Source: a virus
Length of the DNA: 47,407 nt
IMG/VR virus record: IMGVR_UViG_3300036852_000210
Span: 1-47,407 of that record
Strand: one strand, 5' to 3'
Positions 27,576 to 45,884 of the stretch are shown piece after piece. The translations under genes and the position numbers were made by a program. Below the pieces are notes generated by a model. It saw nothing but the letters and a program-made list of their open reading frames with translations. It had not been told where the DNA came from and made no database searches. Numbering within the stretch: the stretch's first letter is position 1; each line of letters starts with the position of its first letter.

Positions 27576-27733
27576 TTTTTCCTCGTCTGCTCGGCCAGCT
27601 TGGACCGCTTTACATGCTGTACCTTGGGCACCTTCTCCCCGTGACTGTGAGAGATGAACTTCTTCGCCCAGTCCTTGCCCTCACTGGCCTTGGCGTGGAT
27701 GAACCGAGACTGAGCCAGGGATTTGTAGGGCAT
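27572..27733 (-). CDS. Small basic protein beside terminase
   Basis: 53 residues from ATG 27733, which overlaps the terminase stop as TGATG. The start MPYKSLAQSRFIHAKASEGK matches a small conserved phage protein family ('PFKS.AQ.R...A......A..F'), of unknown function and often encoded near terminase or capsid genes. Very basic C-terminus (KRSKLAEQTRKK). Nucleic-acid binding is plausible. Confidence 0.65.
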   Translation of the reverse strand: MPYKSLAQSRFIHAKASEGKDWAKKFISHSHGEKVPKVQHVKRSKLAEQTRKK

Positions 27734-29265
27734 CAGGTTGCCCGAGGTCCGTAACTGCCTCCACGACTCCAGCCGTTCTGCTTCCACTCATGCTCACTCA
27801 CGACCAGCGCCTCTTGGAGCTCGACCTCGGGCGTGCGATCCCTACTCCGACGCTTCCCATTCGGCAGGTAACCGGGATGTACGTCATGGGGGATGACCCG
27901 GCGCGGCTCGGGCACATCGGGCCACGCACCAGCAAGCAAGTATCGCAGCGCATCTATGGGATGATCGTCGGGAGATTTGGTATCAATCTGGTCCTGCTTC
28001 TTCTCATCGAGCCGGATGACGGGTAAAACCTTCGTTAAATACGGACAGCGCGATTTTACGATCTTGAGCTGGGGCTGGCGCGTACTGGGCAAAGTCCCGT
28101 CTGCTAGGCGCGGCCCCCAATCCAGCATCTTTCGCACGCTGTTGTAGCCAGCGACTCGTGAGCCAGGTCCTTTAGGTGCCGGAAGAACGGGCAGAGACGG
28201 CGCATTCGCATTACGGAGAGCATCACCTAATCCCGATTGAAACTCCATCAAGACGGTAGCTCCTCCGATGCCCGTCTTCGCTGCCATAGCCGAATCGGCC
28301 CAGATGTTCACTGGCCACCCCGGCATGTCTCCTAGGAGAAAAGCGGTTCCAACGTCATAGCCAGCCTCATAAGCATCTTTGTCCCGCCACACCCATTCCC
28401 ATGCAACCAAGCACTTTTTCTGTGGAGACACCGCAGCGAGGAGGAGCACGCTTGGGGCCGTAATACCCCAGTCCATGCCAGCCAGCCACATCCAATTTTG
28501 GGGAACGTGTATTTCAGGAACGCAGTGCACCGACGCGTCCCAGTTGGGGAAGGCGAGGCCCGCCCCTCCGGTGAGGAGCTCAGCATAGACTTCTTCTTTG
28601 AGTGCTTCAGAATCGGTAGGGTATTCGTCGATCAAATCACGGATTTCACGAGGATCGAGGAGCGGGTTATCGAAGGGTGTATTGTGCCAATGTGCCCATC
28701 CCTTCTCCGTACTCCGCGCTCCATTCAGGACTTCCTCACAAATCTGGTTGAACTCGCTCCCTGCTTTGGTTGAGCTTACCCATGCGCCCCACCCCTTCCG
28801 ATCCATCAGAATAGGGCGGATCTCACGTCGGAATGCTTCAAGAGTGGGATATTGCGCCGCCTCCTCAAACATCACGCCACCGATGTTTTCGCCTAAGCCA
28901 CGAATAGTCCCAATTGCTTCGGCGGACTTGACCCACAGCCGTCCACCGGTACCAAGATCCACGGTCCGATTGTCGCCTCGAACCGTGCCAACCCGTGAAA
29001 AGGTCGGCACGATGAATTGATGCCAGAAGATTTCTGATTGAGGGTAAGCCGGCACCACCCACGCCACGTCACGACCTTGAAGCAGACCCGGAAACCGAGG
29101 GCTCCCGCTCACTCCTTCCCGCGGCCCATGCCCGTCCGTTGCCGCAGTAGCCGCCCATACAGTTTTTCCTGTGCGGCGGCCAGCTCGCCAGACCTTCCAG
29201 CGAGCTCCAGACAGGTGCACCGGCTCTTGATGGACTAGGGGATACGTGAGGTCAAGGGTAGGCAT
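27733..29265 (-). CDS. terL: Terminase large subunit (TerL)
   Basis: 510 residues; the ATP-driven DNA packaging motor and nuclease. The ATPase domain shows a Walker A AGRRTGKT (about 28-35), a Walker B GGVMFEEAA (about 129-137) with catalytic Glu, and a coupling motif STKAGS (about 164-169). The C-terminal RNase H-like nuclease has the first acidic strand in LAGMDWGITA (around 265), ADSA in the middle, and the late SPDDHPIDALRYLL motif. It follows TerS and a 60-residue gene in the packaging cassette. Identification is firm. Confidence 0.93.
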   Translation of the reverse strand: MPTLDLTYPLVHQEPVHLSGARWKVWRAGRRTGKTVWAATAATDGHGPREGVSGSPRFPGLLQGRDVAWVVPAYPQSEIFWHQFIVPTFSRVGTVRGDNRTVDLGTGGRLWVKSAEAIGTIRGLGENIGGVMFEEAAQYPTLEAFRREIRPILMDRKGWGAWVSSTKAGSEFNQICEEVLNGARSTEKGWAHWHNTPFDNPLLDPREIRDLIDEYPTDSEALKEEVYAELLTGGAGLAFPNWDASVHCVPEIHVPQNWMWLAGMDWGITAPSVLLLAAVSPQKKCLVAWEWVWRDKDAYEAGYDVGTAFLLGDMPGWPVNIWADSAMAAKTGIGGATVLMEFQSGLGDALRNANAPSLPVLPAPKGPGSRVAGYNSVRKMLDWGPRLADGTLPSTRQPQLKIVKSRCPYLTKVLPVIRLDEKKQDQIDTKSPDDHPIDALRYLLAGAWPDVPEPRRVIPHDVHPGYLPNGKRRSRDRTPEVELQEALVVSEHEWKQNGWSRGGSYGPRAT

Positions 29266-30942: not shown

Positions 30943-31023
30943 TCACTTGGAGGAAGGAGAGGCGAACCCCGTGAGGAGTAGCACGCTCACTAATGCCAGA
31001 GTCCACGGCTTGCCGTAAAGCAT
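30943..31023 (-). CDS. 26-aa hydrophobic peptide after the cytochrome gene
   Basis: MLYGKPWTLALVSVLLLTGF and a short SPSSK end. Its ATG overlaps the cytochrome stop as TGATG (31025-31021), so translation is probably coupled. One hydrophobic helix with a basic start could be a membrane peptide or an uncleaved signal anchor. The pairing with an exported cytochrome suggests a partner role, but nothing else supports it. Confidence 0.5.
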   Translation of the reverse strand: MLYGKPWTLALVSVLLLTGFASPSSK

Positions 31024-32309
31024 CACAACAACTTCGCCCGCACTTGGTTAGCCAAGTTGTTGAGCGTAGTATACTCCGTCGTGGTTACCTTGGGCTGGAG
31101 CTGGCTCATCGCCGTATTCACTTGGCCCGTTGCCTGACTTCTCAGTGCTGCCGTAGGAGGTATGTCCCCACTGTTCAATCTCCGGAGCAATTCCTCCAAG
31201 GCAAACTTCCCTGCGTTATAGGCCCAACTCGTCCCGCTTGGGGTAATGTTACTGAATTTCTGGAAGTCCTTGTAGGGACTCGTATCCTCCAGGAAATCCC
31301 CGGGGTCTCGATCCACTAGTGACCGGAGACAAACGAACACCCCATGCCGCTTAAGCTGTTGCGCCATCAGCCCATCCACCGTATAGACACAGGGCTCATG
31401 CTTGGGATCGAACACCCAAGCTACCACCATCCACCGCGCCCACTGCTGGAAGCTGTTTACCACCTCCGCCCCAGTCCCCCGTGAGCGTCGAGCAATATCC
31501 CCCACATCCCACCATTCCAGATAGGCTCGGCTGGAGACGCTGCCTCCCTTAATGACACGGGTAGCAATGAGCGTCGAGAGCCAGCGGCGGATCTCGAAGC
31601 ACTGCCCGAAGTTACGCTTGGCGGTGTTGAGGTAGGCACACGGGGCGATCGTATTGGCCGTGTTGGTGGCCGCCTCCTCCACCGCCAGGATGAACGTGTC
31701 AAGGTTTGGGCTCGTCTCGCTGGCCTGGTAGGCCGCCAAGGCATTCGCCGCAGCATTGCTGTTCCACGTCAGGATGGGGAGTGGAATAGAGTCTTTCGGC
31801 ATCCATTCTAAGTTGCAATTGGGCAACCCATAACACGGGGCTTCGGACGACCAGGGAAGGAAGTCCAAGGCTTGGCGCACGGTGAGCGGATCAATCGCTA
31901 GGAGCTGGGCTTTGGTCAACGTCGCCGGCCAAGCGTTACTCCCAAACAACGCGATGGCAAAGTTGTTATCCCCGGTGCTGTTGACCCCTCCTGCGATGAC
32001 ACTTCCCCCCGGCTGGAAGAGTTTGGTGTTCTCCGGGACATGCGGGGTCTGGAGTGAGGTGATGTAGTTAGCAATCGCCCAGGACTTCGTTGAGTCTACA
32101 TGCCCCAAAGCACGTCTCACAATATTCGTATCGGTGTAGGAGAAATACGCGAGGTCAAATCCCGCGTGGTCGCTGTGGCAGCTCGCACAGCTCTGCTCGA
32201 AATAGATTTGCCCGGAGCCCGATGGCGTGAAGCGCGCCCGCTCAAACTGGGGCGGGGTAGTGGGCTCAGCACAGGCCGCAAGCACCAATAGCGTAGCAAA
32301 GCGTTTCAC
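31023..32309 (-). CDS. Lipoprotein c-type cytochrome
   Basis: 428 residues from a GTG that overlaps the integrase stop (GTGA). Residues 1-13 (MKRFATLLVLAAC) form a signal with a lipobox, LAAC, so the mature protein should be a lipid-anchored exported protein. Heme c attachment is CASCH at 41-45 in the context GQIYFEQSCASCHSDHAGF; the helix AIANYITSLQ at about 78-87 fits the C-terminal helix of a cytochrome c fold. No Met lies nearby, so the sixth ligand is unclear (His in ALGHVD is a candidate). The remaining 330 residues contain more Cys but no second CXXCH. Heme attachment needs the host maturation system. An auxiliary electron-transfer gene is inferred. Confidence 0.85.
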   Translation of the reverse strand: MKRFATLLVLAACAEPTTPPQFERARFTPSGSGQIYFEQSCASCHSDHAGFDLAYFSYTDTNIVRRALGHVDSTKSWAIANYITSLQTPHVPENTKLFQPGGSVIAGGVNSTGDNNFAIALFGSNAWPATLTKAQLLAIDPLTVRQALDFLPWSSEAPCYGLPNCNLEWMPKDSIPLPILTWNSNAAANALAAYQASETSPNLDTFILAVEEAATNTANTIAPCAYLNTAKRNFGQCFEIRRWLSTLIATRVIKGGSVSSRAYLEWWDVGDIARRSRGTGAEVVNSFQQWARWMVVAWVFDPKHEPCVYTVDGLMAQQLKRHGVFVCLRSLVDRDPGDFLEDTSPYKDFQKFSNITPSGTSWAYNAGKFALEELLRRLNSGDIPPTAALRSQATGQVNTAMSQLQPKVTTTEYTTLNNLANQVRAKLL

Positions 32310-33670
32310 GGAGAAGTCCTCAGAGGAGTTTCACGGGACACGGCCAAAGTGCCGTTTGAGTGCTGTTTGCTTTCGGGATTCGGGGGCGGTTTGGGCTGGT
32401 CGACCACGACTTCCCGGCCTTGCGGTTGCGTTTTCCCGGGGAATCCGGCAGAATTGGCTAGGGCTTGAACCGCTAGGTTGTAGGTTCGATTCCTACGCGG
32501 CGCATTCGTAAGTCGTTGATTTATTTGAGGGGTTTCCCGGACGCTCGGCTCTGCGTGCTCTTTGGGTGCTATTCCGTCCAAATCCCGAAAGGCTTCCAGT
32601 AGTCGATCGTCCCGTCGTTTCAGGTATTTGCTGGCCACCCGTAAGTCGGTATCCCCGATCGCCGCCATGGCCGTCCCAATATCCTGCGTCCGCTCCAGCA
32701 CGTCGTTGAACAGCATTCTTCGGAGCCCATGAGCCCCACGGCGGTCAAGGTGCGGGATCTTGGCGTGTCGCTCGGCTAACCGAAGGGCGGCCCAGAGGGA
32801 TTGGGCGGAGTAGGTGAGCTGTCTGCTCTTGGCGGACCCGGACGGGAACACCCACGGCGAACCTTCTGCTCGGGCCTGCACGGCCCTCAACACCACCAGG
32901 GAGGCATTCCGAAGGGGCTGGGTCCACTCCCGACCTACCTTGTCGTGCTTTGAGCGCCACGTCACCATCCTTGCCCCAAAATCCACATCCTCCCATCGGA
33001 GGTGCAGCACGGCGTTCTGTCGCACCCCCTGGTAGCCACAGAGGGCCAGGACCGCATGGGCTCGCCAAGTAGTTGCCCCTTCAAGCGGGAGTTGGGCTAG
33101 AAGAGCTGCGAAGTCCTCAGCCCGGTACTCTGCCGGCGCCACCGTGCGCTTTTCTTTGGCTACCTTGTAGCGGAACTCCCGCACATCATTTCGGGCGAGG
33201 AGGCGGTGCCGAAACCCCCACGCATAGACCATCCGGACTATGCGGATCGTCTGCCCGATGGTGGAGGGGGCAAGGTCTTGGCTCTCCAGGTCGGCCCGAA
33301 ACCGGGCCATAGTGTCGGGGCCAAGATCCTCAGCAATAGACTCGGGCGCCGCGAACACTTCCCACCGTCGCCAATACTCCGCATAAAGCACCTGGCTCCG
33401 GGGCCTCAGGGTAGGAAACTCGGCTTCGGCGTACCGCTCCCAGAGCTCCACCGTGGTGAGCGCCATGACCTGCACCTTGACCTGACGTAGCTGGCCGAAC
33501 CGCTCCGCCCAGGCTTTGGCTTCGGCGCGATTGGGAGCGGTGTTGGCCCAGCTCCGTTTCTTGCGTAGCCCCCGCTCTCGCCATTGGGCGGTAATCCGCT
33601 CTCCCTCAATCCAGAGCGAGACGGAGCGGCCATGCGGCCCGTAGCGTCCACGGCCCAGAGGCGTTCTCAT
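32306..33670 (-). CDS. int: Tyrosine integrase with attP inside its 3' end
   Basis: 454 residues from ATG 33670 (ATGA overlap with the excisionase-like gene; the longer frame is rejected). Site-specific recombinase for lysogeny. Residues about 70-160 form the core-binding domain. Catalytic residues: R217 (GYQGVRQNAVLHLRWEDVD), K241 or K244, H314 and R317 (AHGLRR), Y349 (ASKYLK). The third-histidine position is D340 (GDTDLRVASKYLK), an unusual but known type of change. About residues 389-402 are encoded by the tRNA-derived attP sequence, followed by about 50 Pro-rich residues. Coupled to the cytochrome gene downstream by GTGA. Confidence 0.9.
   Translation of the reverse strand: MRTPLGRGRYGPHGRSVSLWIEGERITAQWRERGLRKKRSWANTAPNRAEAKAWAERFGQLRQVKVQVMALTTVELWERYAEAEFPTLRPRSQVLYAEYWRRWEVFAAPESIAEDLGPDTMARFRADLESQDLAPSTIGQTIRIVRMVYAWGFRHRLLARNDVREFRYKVAKEKRTVAPAEYRAEDFAALLAQLPLEGATTWRAHAVLALCGYQGVRQNAVLHLRWEDVDFGARMVTWRSKHDKVGREWTQPLRNASLVVLRAVQARAEGSPWVFPSGSAKSRQLTYSAQSLWAALRLAERHAKIPHLDRRGAHGLRRMLFNDVLERTQDIGTAMAAIGDTDLRVASKYLKRRDDRLLEAFRDLDGIAPKEHAEPSVRETPQINQRLTNAPRRNRTYNLAVQALANSAGFPGKTQPQGREVVVDQPKPPPNPESKQHSNGTLAVSRETPLRTSP
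32465..32504 (+). other. attP: 3' half of a tRNA gene
   Basis: On the plus strand, TTGAA and CCGCT are followed by AGGTT, then a perfect T-arm (GTAGG, loop TTCGATT, CCTAC at 32480-32496), an acceptor strand GCGGCGC (32497-32503) and A (32504). Upstream bases do not complete an anticodon stem or a 5' GCGCCGC strand, so this is not a whole tRNA. It is the att core that would restore the 3' end of a host tRNA upon integration. The exact 5' edge and the isoacceptor are undecided; the loop could fit a CNN-codon tRNA such as Gln. No CCA is encoded. Confidence 0.85.
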
Positions 33671-34008
33671 GCGCTCTTTCTCGCGTCCCGTTCGGCTTGG
33701 GCTCTGGCGGCTTCTAAGTTGGCTCTCCGAGGAACAACAATGCGCCGGTAATATCGGCGCTTGTGACGCCACTCCGCTAATCCTTGTGTCTCCCATTCCG
33801 CAAAGTGACTCCGCAACCAGTCGGCTGACTTCCCACTCCGAGTTCTCGCTTCCCCTTCGTCGAGCCAATCGAGATAATCCCTAGCTGCTTTGGCTACGTC
33901 CTCTGACAGTCGGTCAATGCTCTCCGCTTGAGCCTTGTGGCCGTGGAGCCTGAGCCGATTCGCGTCCTCTCTGGCATCCGCCAGCACCTGTTCCAAGGAC
34001 CGGTTCAT
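33667..34008 (-). CDS. Excisionase / MerR-like DNA-binding protein (likely)
   Basis: 113 residues from ATG 34008 (ATGA overlap). N-terminal helix (LEQVLADAREDANRLRLHGH), then DWLDEGEARTRSGKSADWLR, SHFAEWETQGLAEWRHKRRY and YRRIVVPRRANLEAAR. The second half resembles the winged-helix of small recombination directionality factors, with a helix-turn-helix followed by a Lys/Arg wing. Directly upstream of int and coupled to it, it is probably the excisionase; a replication or packaging DNA-binder is the alternative. Confidence 0.55.
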   Translation of the reverse strand: MNRSLEQVLADAREDANRLRLHGHKAQAESIDRLSEDVAKAARDYLDWLDEGEARTRSGKSADWLRSHFAEWETQGLAEWRHKRRYYRRIVVPRRANLEAARAQAERDARKSA

Positions 34009-34253
34009 CGGGGCACCCGAAACCGTCGACACTGCTTGTACTGCCTCCAAAAGTCCCGTTTCTCCAGCGCACATTTGAAACAAAGACAGCCGGGTCTGCA
34101 GCCCCGATACCTCGGCACCGGGGGCGAGGCTTGATCCACTTGGACGATGCGATCATCAGTGCGTTGGTACAGCTTGCAACCGAGTCGCCTTCCTCCGCGT
34201 CTTGTTTTGGCGCGTTGGGGGAGAATGAACAGCCGTTCTCCGTCGTCCATCAT
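34005..34253 (-). CDS. Small Cys-rich protein, unknown
   Basis: 82 residues; basic, with CRPGCLCFKCALEKRDFW that offers four Cys in a short span (possible zinc site). ATGA overlaps at both ends (34253 with RusA, 34008 with the excisionase-like gene) support it as a real gene. It may bind DNA. No family recognised. Confidence 0.6.
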   Translation of the reverse strand: MMDDGERLFILPQRAKTRRGGRRLGCKLYQRTDDRIVQVDQASPPVPRYRGCRPGCLCFKCALEKRDFWRQYKQCRRFRVPR

Positions 34254-37882: not shown

Positions 37883-38079
37883 CCCACCCTCTCATCATTA
37901 AATGAAGTACAAATCTCATCAACCTCTGCTTGAGCTTCGCGCCTCCAACGCTCCTCTTTTGTTTCCTCTAGGATAAGCCACGCATCAACGGACACACCCG
38001 GCGCAGCGATATAGCGGCGAAGAATGCGCACCCATAGCGCCTTGTAGTCCTGGGGCCCACCCTGTGAGGAGCTACCCAT
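37879..38079 (-). CDS. Small helical protein (66 aa), unknown
   Basis: 66 residues. Starts MGSSSQGGPQDYKALWVRIL and continues with RRYIAAPGVSVDAWLILEET, then charged helix (KEERWRREAQAEVDEICTSF). Overlaps the methyltransferase stop by eight bases. No known family or motif. Confidence 0.5.
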   Translation of the reverse strand: MGSSSQGGPQDYKALWVRILRRYIAAPGVSVDAWLILEETKEERWRREAQAEVDEICTSFNDERVG

Positions 38080-38842
38080 GAGACACCACCAATTCGGGAT
38101 ACATCGCTCGTTTCACTGCTTTGGCGACTGCTCTCCCCATAGGAAGAGGAACCCCGTTGCCAACTGCCTCGCGCTTGCCCGTCACGGTAAGGGGACAGTT
38201 TTCTAGGTGCTCACCGGATAACCCTTGGCGTTCAAGCATCGCAGACACAGAAAGGCGCGGCCCCTCATGTGGTGCCGTGCCACCCGTCTGCTTCTTTCGC
38301 TTGAAACCCTTGAGCATTGCGACCGGCTGTGTTCTGGCATCGCAGACGACGGCCTTCTCTGGCTCCGCGGTATGCAAGGCCATTTGTTCTACTCGAAAGA
38401 GAAGTTGACTGCTGAGGTTAGCGTATCCACGCAACCCAAACGAAAACCGACGCCGGCGTGAGGTCACGCCACCGACCCAGACATCTTCGATGACTCGATC
38501 CGTTATCCCGTACCCAGCAATCTCTGGGAGTGGCGCGGCGGGCACGTTCTCCATCAAAAACCAATCCGATTGAGCCTCGTGTACGACACGCTGATATTCA
38601 GGAATTAGGTTCTCGGCAACTCGATGCCCATTGGCCCGCACGAGATGCACCAATTGGCTGGCGAACTGGCACGGTGGCCCGCCAATCACCCCCTGGAATA
38701 CCCCTGACGGTGGGTGGAAGTTCCGAATGTCTCCACCCCAGAGAAGATCCGGCCCGCGTACCACGCAGAATCCCTCTTGTTCAAAGGCCATGTCCAGCAA
38801 CCCGATGCCGGGAAAGAGGCTCAGGACCAGAGGCTGGTTCAT
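38072..38842 (-). CDS. C5-cytosine DNA methyltransferase (orphan)
   Basis: 256 residues from ATG 38842; the longer frame runs through two upstream genes. It transfers methyl from SAM to cytosine C5. Motifs are in order: I, SLFPGIGLLDMAFEQEG (SAM binding); IV, GGPPCQFAS with catalytic C58; VI, FLMENVPAAP (E98, N99); VIII, SRRRRFSFG (about 128-136); X, AVGNGVPLPMGRAVAKAV near the end. The variable region between VIII and X is only about 90 residues, so the target site is unpredicted. No restriction partner nearby, so it probably protects phage DNA or alters host methylation. Confidence 0.9.
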   Translation of the reverse strand: MNQPLVLSLFPGIGLLDMAFEQEGFCVVRGPDLLWGGDIRNFHPPSGVFQGVIGGPPCQFASQLVHLVRANGHRVAENLIPEYQRVVHEAQSDWFLMENVPAAPLPEIAGYGITDRVIEDVWVGGVTSRRRRFSFGLRGYANLSSQLLFRVEQMALHTAEPEKAVVCDARTQPVAMLKGFKRKKQTGGTAPHEGPRLSVSAMLERQGLSGEHLENCPLTVTGKREAVGNGVPLPMGRAVAKAVKRAMYPELVVSHG

Positions 38843-38889
38843 GGGTTCCTCTGGGGGGATCGAGGAGAGCCAGAAGTCACCGGGCTCAT
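38839..38889 (-). CDS. 16-aa micro-ORF before the methyltransferase
   Basis: MSPVTSGSPRSPQRNP: the ATG overlaps the upstream stop (ATGA at 38889-38886) and the TGA overlaps the methyltransferase ATG (38842-38839). Whether it is a functional leader peptide or a bridge that carries ribosomes through a 43-base gap cannot be told. Another coupler of exactly 16 residues exists at 40243. Confidence 0.35.
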   Translation of the reverse strand: MSPVTSGSPRSPQRNP

Positions 38890-39053
38890 AATCGCGTTGG
38901 CTCGATTTGGAATACATCGCAGAGCCATCGGAGGAGCCGCCGCTTCTCATCGAATCCCAGCCCTTGGAAGGCGTAGAGTGCCCGATCCAATGCACGGACG
39001 AGCGTCCCGTACTGGTGGCCTGTGAATGGCCCGTCGCGTTTTACCTGGCTCAC
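38886..39053 (-). CDS. Small helical protein (55 aa), unknown
   Basis: 55 residues from GTG 39053, which overlaps the previous stop (GTGA). It begins MSQVKRDGPFTGHQYGTLVR and continues with ALDRALYAFQGLGFDEKRRL, then LRWLCDVFQIEPTRL. The longer frame at 38886-39341 is an artefact that reads through the membrane peptide gene. Unknown; conserved-looking helix pair. Confidence 0.6.
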   Translation of the reverse strand: MSQVKRDGPFTGHQYGTLVRALDRALYAFQGLGFDEKRRLLRWLCDVFQIEPTRL

Positions 39054-41047: not shown

Positions 41048-41120
41048 AGCTCGATGCTGGACTCGAACCAGCGACCTGCGCGTTACGAATGCGCTGCTCT
41101 ACCTGCTGAGCTAATCGAGC
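41048..41120 (-). tRNA. tRNA-Thr (anticodon CGU)
   Basis: Cloverleaf of 73 bases: acceptor GCTCGAT/ATCGAGC (7 bp), D-stem GCTC/GAGC with loop AGCAGGTA, anticodon stem GCGCA/CGCGC (closing A-C mismatch), loop TTCGTAA with anticodon CGT (41087-41085), variable AGGTC, T-stem GCTGG/CCAGC with loop TTCGAGT. Anticodon CGU reads ACG (Thr). No CCA is encoded and the discriminator is T. It immediately follows the tRNA-like unit at 41122. Confidence 0.9.
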
Positions 41121-44180: not shown

Positions 44181-44356
44181 GCGACCTCCAATCGTCGGGG
44201 CTTCACCGGGACAGTGGCCCGGGTTACTTCGCGCTGATAGGTCCGTTCGGCTTCCCGTAACCACCACGCCCGGAGTACGGCCTCGGTGTGCTCGACATAT
44301 TGGTGGCCGGTGATCTGGACTCCACCACGGGAAACCCAACGATGCTCGATCGTCAT
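44177..44356 (-). CDS. Small Trp/Arg-rich protein (59 aa), unknown
   Basis: ATGA overlap with the ParB-like gene (ATG 44356, stop 44353) and GTGA overlap with the next gene. MTIEHRWVSRGGVQITGHQY and HTEAVLRAWWLREAERTYQR. Basic. No family recognised, but the two overlaps support expression. Confidence 0.6.
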   Translation of the reverse strand: MTIEHRWVSRGGVQITGHQYVEHTEAVLRAWWLREAERTYQREVTRATVPVKPRRLEVA

Positions 44357-45144
44357 GCCGGAAACGGCGGCAAGCGATTCTTTCCCTTGCCCTTGTTGTA
44401 TTCGCTCACGATGGTCCGGGCTGCGGCGACGGGGACGTTGGTCGCATCGACCTTGGAGCGATCCCGCGCGCGCCCAATCATCTTTGCCGGCCCCCCAGAC
44501 TTAGCGAGGCACGCCGCCATCATCTTGTCGTCCATGGCCCCATTGTATTCATTGCAGACAAGAGCCAGTCCCCGAAGCAGGCTGTTATGGTAGGCGTCTC
44601 GATCCTTGCCCCATGCGTTCTTGAGGAGCGTGATAACGCGATCTAGGGCAGCCGGGCCGCCCGTTTTGTCGATGATCCAGTCACACGCAGCCACGGCGGC
44701 GACATTTCCCTCTTCTGTACCGGCTGCGATTTTCAGCCCGTGGTTGTAGAGCGTACCATGCACTGTGCGCGCCCTCCACTCTCCCGCCTTGACCCGCACG
44801 AGGTAACTGGCAATCGAGGTCCACTTCTTCTGGGTGTTCAGCAGCAGAGAGCGCTTGGCCAGTTCTGCCGCAGTGACATTCTCATAGACGCGGCAGTAAA
44901 CCTGTTGATCTTCACCCAATGCCTTCCCCGCGGCATACCATCGGTGCTGACCATCCCAGATCAGGTAATCCCGGGCCGTCTTGAGGACATATAACTCACC
45001 GAACGCATCGGGATCAAAAGCCGCAGCGATAGCTTCCGCATGTGCTTTGACCAGCGAACGCTGGATGTCGGGATGCGGTCGGAGCTGGTCGATCCGCAGC
45101 CATTCGTGCGTGTAGTCTGGCTGCGGCATGGTGGTCTTACTCAT
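44353..45144 (-). CDS. ParB/Srx-like protein 2
   Basis: 263 residues. N-terminal ParB/sulfiredoxin-type fold: WLRIDQLRPHPDIQRSL and WDGQHRWYAAGKAL (63-76, the D-G-x-H-R box). The C-terminal 170 residues are helical and contain no clear helix-turn-helix. ParB-like proteins bind or hydrolyse nucleotides and some act as nucleases or transcription factors. It is coupled by ATGA to the other ParB-like gene. Confidence 0.7.
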   Translation of the reverse strand: MSKTTMPQPDYTHEWLRIDQLRPHPDIQRSLVKAHAEAIAAAFDPDAFGELYVLKTARDYLIWDGQHRWYAAGKALGEDQQVYCRVYENVTAAELAKRSLLLNTQKKWTSIASYLVRVKAGEWRARTVHGTLYNHGLKIAAGTEEGNVAAVAACDWIIDKTGGPAALDRVITLLKNAWGKDRDAYHNSLLRGLALVCNEYNGAMDDKMMAACLAKSGGPAKMIGRARDRSKVDATNVPVAAARTIVSEYNKGKGKNRLPPFPA

Positions 45145-45884
45145 CGTTCACACTCCGTGATGAATCGGGTGAGATCGGTTCGCACATCCCGAAGCCTGGT
45201 CGCCCATTCGGAACGACGCTTGTCGCCGTTCATCTGAGGCAACGCCTCGGTTAAGAGTTCGGTGAGGTTGACGATGGATTCCACAGTACGATGGATACGC
45301 TCCGCTGCTGCCTTCACGGGGTTCCGGTTCGTGTGCTGATTGCGGTGCACCTTGGGGGGGGCGGTCATAGCAGCCCGCTGCTCCGCGTCGGGGAGCTTTG
45401 AAATTTTCGCAGCAGGGTAAACCGCCATCTCTCCCCGTTCTACCGCCGCCGCTAATTCTGGAATGCCGTCACGCCTCACAATGCGAGCCTCACCAATAGT
45501 CGATTTGCCCACGTTCAATAGCTTGGCGGCAGCGTCCAGGGACATCGTTCCGGATTTGGAACGATCTTCTTTGTTCCTGCTAGTGCCCGAAGCGGCAATC
45601 TTTTCAGCGACCATTGCTCGCTGGCTGTCGTTCAGGTGCCTACGATGCAAATTGAGCGAGACAACATAGGCCGTCAGGCTCCTTTCCTCGCCCGTCCATT
45701 CACGCACCAGCGGCTTGCGGCTCAACTCCTCACAGGCTCTGGCACGGTGTACACCGTCAATCACTTGCCCACGCCAGAGGGTGATAGGCTCGCGCTGGCC
45801 GTTTTCCCGGATGTCTTCCTTGAGCGCGTTGTACTGCGCTTCGATCATCGGCGGAAACAGTTGCGCTACTGGATGCACGTTCAT
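45141..45884 (-). CDS. ParB-like protein 1 with HTH
   Basis: 247 residues. ParB N-domain: LFPPMIEAQYNALKEDIREN and VIDGVHRARA (the DG-H-R-RA box at 43-50), then AYVVSLNLHRRHLND and a helix-turn-helix (LDAAAKLLNVGKSTIGEARI). The rest is a helical tail. This is the ParB/KorB layout. The canonical GERR phosphate motif is here DGVHR. No ParA gene was found, so it probably controls transcription or phage DNA rather than partition. Coupled to ParB-like 2 by ATGA. Confidence 0.75.
   Translation of the reverse strand: MNVHPVAQLFPPMIEAQYNALKEDIRENGQREPITLWRGQVIDGVHRARACEELSRKPLVREWTGEERSLTAYVVSLNLHRRHLNDSQRAMVAEKIAASGTSRNKEDRSKSGTMSLDAAAKLLNVGKSTIGEARIVRRDGIPELAAAVERGEMAVYPAAKISKLPDAEQRAAMTAPPKVHRNQHTNRNPVKAAAERIHRTVESIVNLTELLTEALPQMNGDKRRSEWATRLRDVRTDLTRFITECER

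Follow-up and report, generated by a model that had tools for sequence, protein, structure and literature searches.

Host electron-transport genes carried by phages are known mainly from cyanophages and a few sulfur phages. The virus genome analyzed here (47,407 nt, referred to below as the window) carries, directly behind its integrase gene, an ORF with a lipobox and a heme-c motif, which raises the question of what this gene encodes, where it comes from and whether its expression is bound to that of the integrase. A preliminary description had seen in it an exported cytochrome c lipoprotein, translationally coupled to the integrase. We consider it fairly probable that the window represents a complete temperate phage with a host in Gemmatimonadota and an integration site at tRNA-Lys(CTT), and that it has captured, next to its attP, a host gene (moron or auxiliary metabolic gene) coding for a mono-heme cytochrome c anchored in the envelope. 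The product is a probable electron carrier, serving in lysogenic conversion or in an auxiliary role. The positions of the main features are collected in Table 1.

Table 1. Positions of the features discussed, as numbered in the window
Feature	Position	Strand	Remarks
Terminase large subunit	27733..29265	-	downstream of cytochrome gene, same strand; packaging/structural block starts here
26-codon hydrophobic ORF	30943..31023	-	overlaps cytochrome stop as TGATG (31025-31021); coding signal neutral; significance uncertain
Exported lipoprotein gene, mono-heme c domain plus C-terminal domain with many invariant Trp/Cys	31023..32309	-	428 codons, GTG start
163-bp stretch from attP core to cytochrome start	32310..32472	-	in a lysogen, the sole phage DNA upstream of the gene besides the core
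attP core, 32 bp	32473..32504	+	identical to Gemmatimonadales tRNA-Lys(CTT) 3' end; core also after int in L002
Tyrosine integrase (int)	32306..33670	-	454 aa in circular genome; predicted 410 aa once integrated
Small gene directly upstream of int	33667..34083	-	counterpart upstream of related integrases in L002 and L083

The window is a complete circular virus genome whose first and last 127 bases are identical (terminal repeat), and terminase, portal and integrase genes are all encoded in it. It further contains a phage-encoded tRNA-Thr (CGT) at 41048-41120, two genes for ParB-like partition proteins side by side at 44353-45884 and a gene for a cytosine DNA methyltransferase-like protein at 38072-38995. 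The small gene upstream of int gave no PHROG match; judged by its position and conservation it probably encodes an excisionase/RDF. A tyrosine integrase with an adjoining attP identical to a tRNA 3' end, as in tRNA-integrating temperate phages, indicates that the phage is temperate and integrates at the 3' end of tRNA-Lys(CTT). On the plus strand the core (32473-32504) reads CTAGGTTGTAGGTTCGATTCCTACGCGGCGCA. This exact 32-mer occurs in 15 genome contigs, 14 of them from Gemmatimonadota, and in 12 of the 15 it forms the 3' end of tRNA-Lys(CTT). In the other three (L005 7206-7237, L007 96-127, L016 328-359) the core stands without its tRNA, as would be expected of displaced att copies; in L005 a distant tyrosine recombinase lies near the displaced tRNA-Lys 3' end. 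A Gemmatimonadales-type tRNA-Lys is also found on a short contig binned as Streptosporangiaceae (L003, 3170-3243), which is probably mis-binned.

Related integrases are found at the same site. The virus L002, a complete circular genome of ~39.9 kb, encodes a 60% identical integrase and has the identical att core directly after the int stop codon. In the Gemmatimonadota genome G157 a 51% identical integrase lies head-on to an intact tRNA-Lys(CTT) and stops before the core; by its arrangement, this is the natural left junction of an integrated relative. In Gemmatimonadales, the tRNA-Lys(CTT) gene appears to be a hot spot of integration. Together with the family of the cytochrome gene (see below), the att core points to Gemmatimonadota as the host phylum. 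With the host phylum of the phage and its exact site of insertion both given by the attP analysis, the lysogen can be searched for. Among relatives, the 17-kb viral contig L121 has structural genes related to those of the window (26-40% identity) and no cytochrome, and the cytochrome gene is absent from the complete relative G001.

The sequence elements named in the preliminary description, i.e. the 428-residue ORF with its GTG start, the GTGA overlap with int (32309-32306), the lipobox and the CASCH motif, are all present. The lipobox Cys is residue 13 within MKRFATLLVLAAC and CASCH occupies residues 41-45. Based on phage codon usage, the ORF scores 0.20 bits/codon in its own frame and -0.25 to -0.62 in the other five. 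Because of this positive own-frame signal and more than 20 full-length relatives, 31023-32309 is truly coding. The hydrophobic 26-residue peptide gene said to be coupled behind it does overlap the cytochrome stop; its coding signal is neutral, and its significance is uncertain.

With the single cytochrome protein as seed, no match was found in viral contigs, phages or genome contigs. Relatives came from whole-genome protein searches of Gemmatimonadota (E down to 1e-88, 29-44% identity, nearly full length). Of the Gemmatimonadota genomes sampled, 26 of 395 contain the family profile, against none of 198 Actinomycetota genomes (E <= 1e-10), the samples being subsets of the phylum and mostly drafts; a plasmid search gave as its sole match the 1.04-Mb replicon of Gemmatirosa kalamazoonensis (NZ_CP007130). 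In the family alignment (A1, 24 aligned members) the lipobox Cys13, the heme-c residues C41, C44 and H45, and H70 are invariant throughout. The export signal consists of a signal peptide with the lipobox around the invariant Cys13; in the phage protein it is short, with 12 residues before the Cys (at least 16 in most relatives). All PDB profile matches at E <= 1 are c-type cytochromes or other heme-c proteins and fall on the CxxCH region. With PF13442 the phage protein reaches 15.4 bits, below the cut-off of 27, and 17 of the 24 family members match at E <= 1. The heme-c profile matches and the invariant lipobox Cys and CxxCH bear out the preliminary view that a temperate phage here encodes an exported lipoprotein resembling c-type cytochromes, and the protein probably binds heme.

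Most of the invariant residues (W127, W153, W169, C224, C237, R242, W243, W267, W293 and others) are not part of the heme domain, in a protein whose C-terminal 330 residues gave no convincing match to Pfam or NCBIfam models; AlphaFold models built without an alignment are of low confidence (pLDDT 38.5 and 42.6). No distal Met of the usual kind is apparent. As second axial ligand His70 is the strongest candidate, and M170 (DWMPD), only nearly invariant among the 24 aligned sequences, is a weaker one. His as second axial ligand also occurs in heme proteins other than simple carriers. The product might thus be a heme-c-binding sensor, enzyme or envelope protein that acts through its C-terminal domain, e.g. 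by altering adsorption or excluding other phages, and the single-gene, variable host contexts of the family, which point to no respiratory partner, would fit such a role. However, the cytochrome matches none of the PADLOC defence models, and a family that is ordinarily chromosomal argues against a phage-specific exclusion role. We hold a non-carrier function to be unlikely. The data also point to an unnamed protein family of Gemmatimonadota in which the heme site is invariant and the additional domain strongly conserved.

The gene is well supported by sequence comparison as a host gene captured by the phage. Host copies are single and lie amid unrelated, variable chromosomal genes (kinases, peptidases, response regulators, thiC and others), and of all proteins of the window only the cytochrome has a match in the 28 host loci. 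In the tree the phage copy is placed inside the host family, as sister to L040 (96/92) in a five-row clade (99/97), and its branch (1.22) is the longest of its clade. It keeps 30 of the 31 residues that are invariant in all other members, the exception being a change of D to E, and 40 of 51 near-invariant residues (at least 44 in most host copies, 36-42 in divergent ones). The nested tree position, the long branch and this pattern of retained residues suggest that the gene passed from host to phage and has since changed rapidly, though under constraint. A simple origin by imprecise excision at tRNA-Lys was considered as well and is unsupported, as the family gene is near tRNA-Lys in no host locus (none of the 28 loci with the family gene contains a tRNA-Lys).

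The same data bear on whether the gene is still functional. The long terminal branch, the short signal peptide, the loss of 11 of 51 near-invariant residues and the failure to find a second viral copy would be compatible with a non-functional passenger, a host gene in decay that was acquired through imprecise excision or recombination. Against this stand the full-length ORF with its phage-like coding statistics and the retention of 30 of the 31 strictly invariant residues despite an identity of about 40% to the closest relative, a divergence at which stops would be expected in a neutral gene. We regard decay as very unlikely. An assembly artefact that joined host DNA to a phage contig, suggested by a gene family that is otherwise chromosomal, appears extremely improbable: same-strand overlapping genes lie on either side, the G/C content of the gene (57.9%) is like that of the phage (59.7%), the genome is closed into a circle, and identity to the host copies does not exceed about 44%. 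The misassembly that the preliminary description had itself considered is thereby argued against, while a related cytochrome in another prophage, whose absence it had listed among the grounds for refutation, was not found within the limits of our searches. In fact, profile scans of viral sequences with A1 and A2 (few peptide patterns, by which distant copies could be missed) yielded no second viral copy, a result that is provisional in that the phage protein itself does not fit the A1 scan patterns. With one viral copy found, recurrence of the cytochrome in viruses is unproven.

What, then, of the link to the integrase? In the circular genome the attP core falls within the int ORF, towards its 3' end, and 163 bp separate it from the cytochrome gene downstream. 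The ORF has no stop ahead of the core and continues for 55 residues beyond it, up to the cytochrome start. Because attP lies inside the ORF, the integrase of the integrated phage is predicted to have 410 residues instead of 454; read into host tRNA sequence, its frame would end in NLVIKSHLLCQLS followed by a stop, at residue 410 (computed). Integration would thus exchange the 55-residue tail (ORF through attP, 32306-32472) for an 11-residue tail from the tRNA antisense strand, and a change of the integrase that depends on integration is possible. A 14-nt inverted repeat with one mismatch (32370-32383 / 32578-32591) flanks the core; it was considered as a pair of integrase arm sites and set aside, one arm lying in conserved int coding sequence and the other having no counterpart in L002.

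If int and the cytochrome gene formed a translationally coupled lysogeny operon, cytochrome would be made whenever integrase is made. The genes share a strand, the int stop TGA (32308-32306) and the cytochrome GTG (32309-32307) overlap as GTGA, and transcription from int could pass through attP into the cytochrome gene while the phage is circular, just after entry or excision. However, attP separates the cytochrome gene from the integrase domain, which breaks the link in every integrated prophage, and the cytochrome gene has an SD-like GAGG of its own 8 nt ahead of its GTG. The overlap itself is weak evidence of coupling, since the int ORF beyond attP has a nearly neutral coding signal (-0.04 bits/codon with phage codon usage), since this tail has no counterpart in two related integrases with the common att core, both of which stop ahead of it, and since an open run of ~67 codons would arise by chance at this G/C content in roughly 10% of cases (our own rough estimate). 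We find such an operon quite unlikely. The stable int-cytochrome unit of the preliminary description is thus not supported, nor is an adjacency kept after integration and conserved in relatives. With the core between them, int and the cytochrome gene would come to lie at opposite prophage ends in a lysogen, and translational coupling would be possible in the circular form only, as integration parts the two genes.

For the captured cytochrome that we favor, the following course can be proposed. Integration would place the gene immediately inside attR, separated from int by roughly the length of the phage (47 kb) and reading inward. The protein would be exported and lipidated on the lipobox Cys, heme would be supplied by the cytochrome c maturation machinery of the host, and the loaded protein could transfer electrons within the periplasm or at the outer membrane, beside or in place of host redox proteins, in the envelope of a lysogen or an infected cell. 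Expression in lysogeny or during infection and a benefit to the phage are likewise presumed. No sigma-70-like promoter site was found in the 163 bp upstream of the gene (promoters of Gemmatimonadota may differ), and the downstream same-strand genes lead into the packaging block; late lytic expression is thus as conceivable as lysogenic expression. One may go further and imagine a respiratory lysogenic conversion, in which the envelope-anchored mono-heme (possibly bis-His) cytochrome changes host respiration or redox sensing, and in which the attP-spanning int ORF ties the cytochrome to int expression in the circle until integration frees it to other control, so that insertion itself would switch its regulation; we rate this as rather unlikely. 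Gemmatimonadota are common but poorly cultured, and an intact cytochrome lipoprotein in one of their complete temperate phages suggests that respiration in this phylum may be altered by prophages.

The closest known counterparts are the chromosomal members of the unnamed Gemmatimonadota family themselves, which share with the phage copy full-length homology, the lipobox Cys, CxxCH, His70, the C224/C237 pair and the conserved Trp residues. They differ in being single chromosomal genes (one on the 1.04-Mb Gemmatirosa replicon), whereas the phage protein, on its long branch, begins with a shorter signal peptide and includes an additional CYGLPNC stretch. Small class I c-type cytochromes (Pfam Cytochrome_CBB3 / Cytochrom_C; CcoP, bc1 cytochrome c subunits, c6) have the helix-CxxCH entry motif in common with it (profile E 1e-5 to 1e-3); in contrast to them, the phage protein scores below the Pfam cut-off with a best match of only ~30 residues, has an invariant His where a Met ligand is usual, and adds a 330-residue domain of no known family. 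For cytochromes in Gemmatimonadota phages we found no direct precedent. Sulfur phages carry soxD as a heme-c auxiliary gene; in the two viral scaffolds concerned one or both heme motifs are missing, and almost every scaffold in that work is incomplete (PMC8190135). Like soxD, the gene described here is a phage-borne electron-transfer gene of host origin, but it resides in a complete temperate genome and has an intact motif. Borgs, giant archaeal elements with many multihaem cytochromes (PMC9605863), are likewise mobile elements with cytochromes of their host, whereas the window has one mono-heme lipoprotein in a 47-kb phage. In kind, the cytochrome gene can be classed as a moron or auxiliary metabolic gene. 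Finally, in the mycobacteriophage BPs attP lies inside the repressor ORF, and integration alters the repressor C-terminus with a functional change (PMC4557955); the window also has its attP within an ORF, but there the interrupted gene is int, with a predicted change of its tail.
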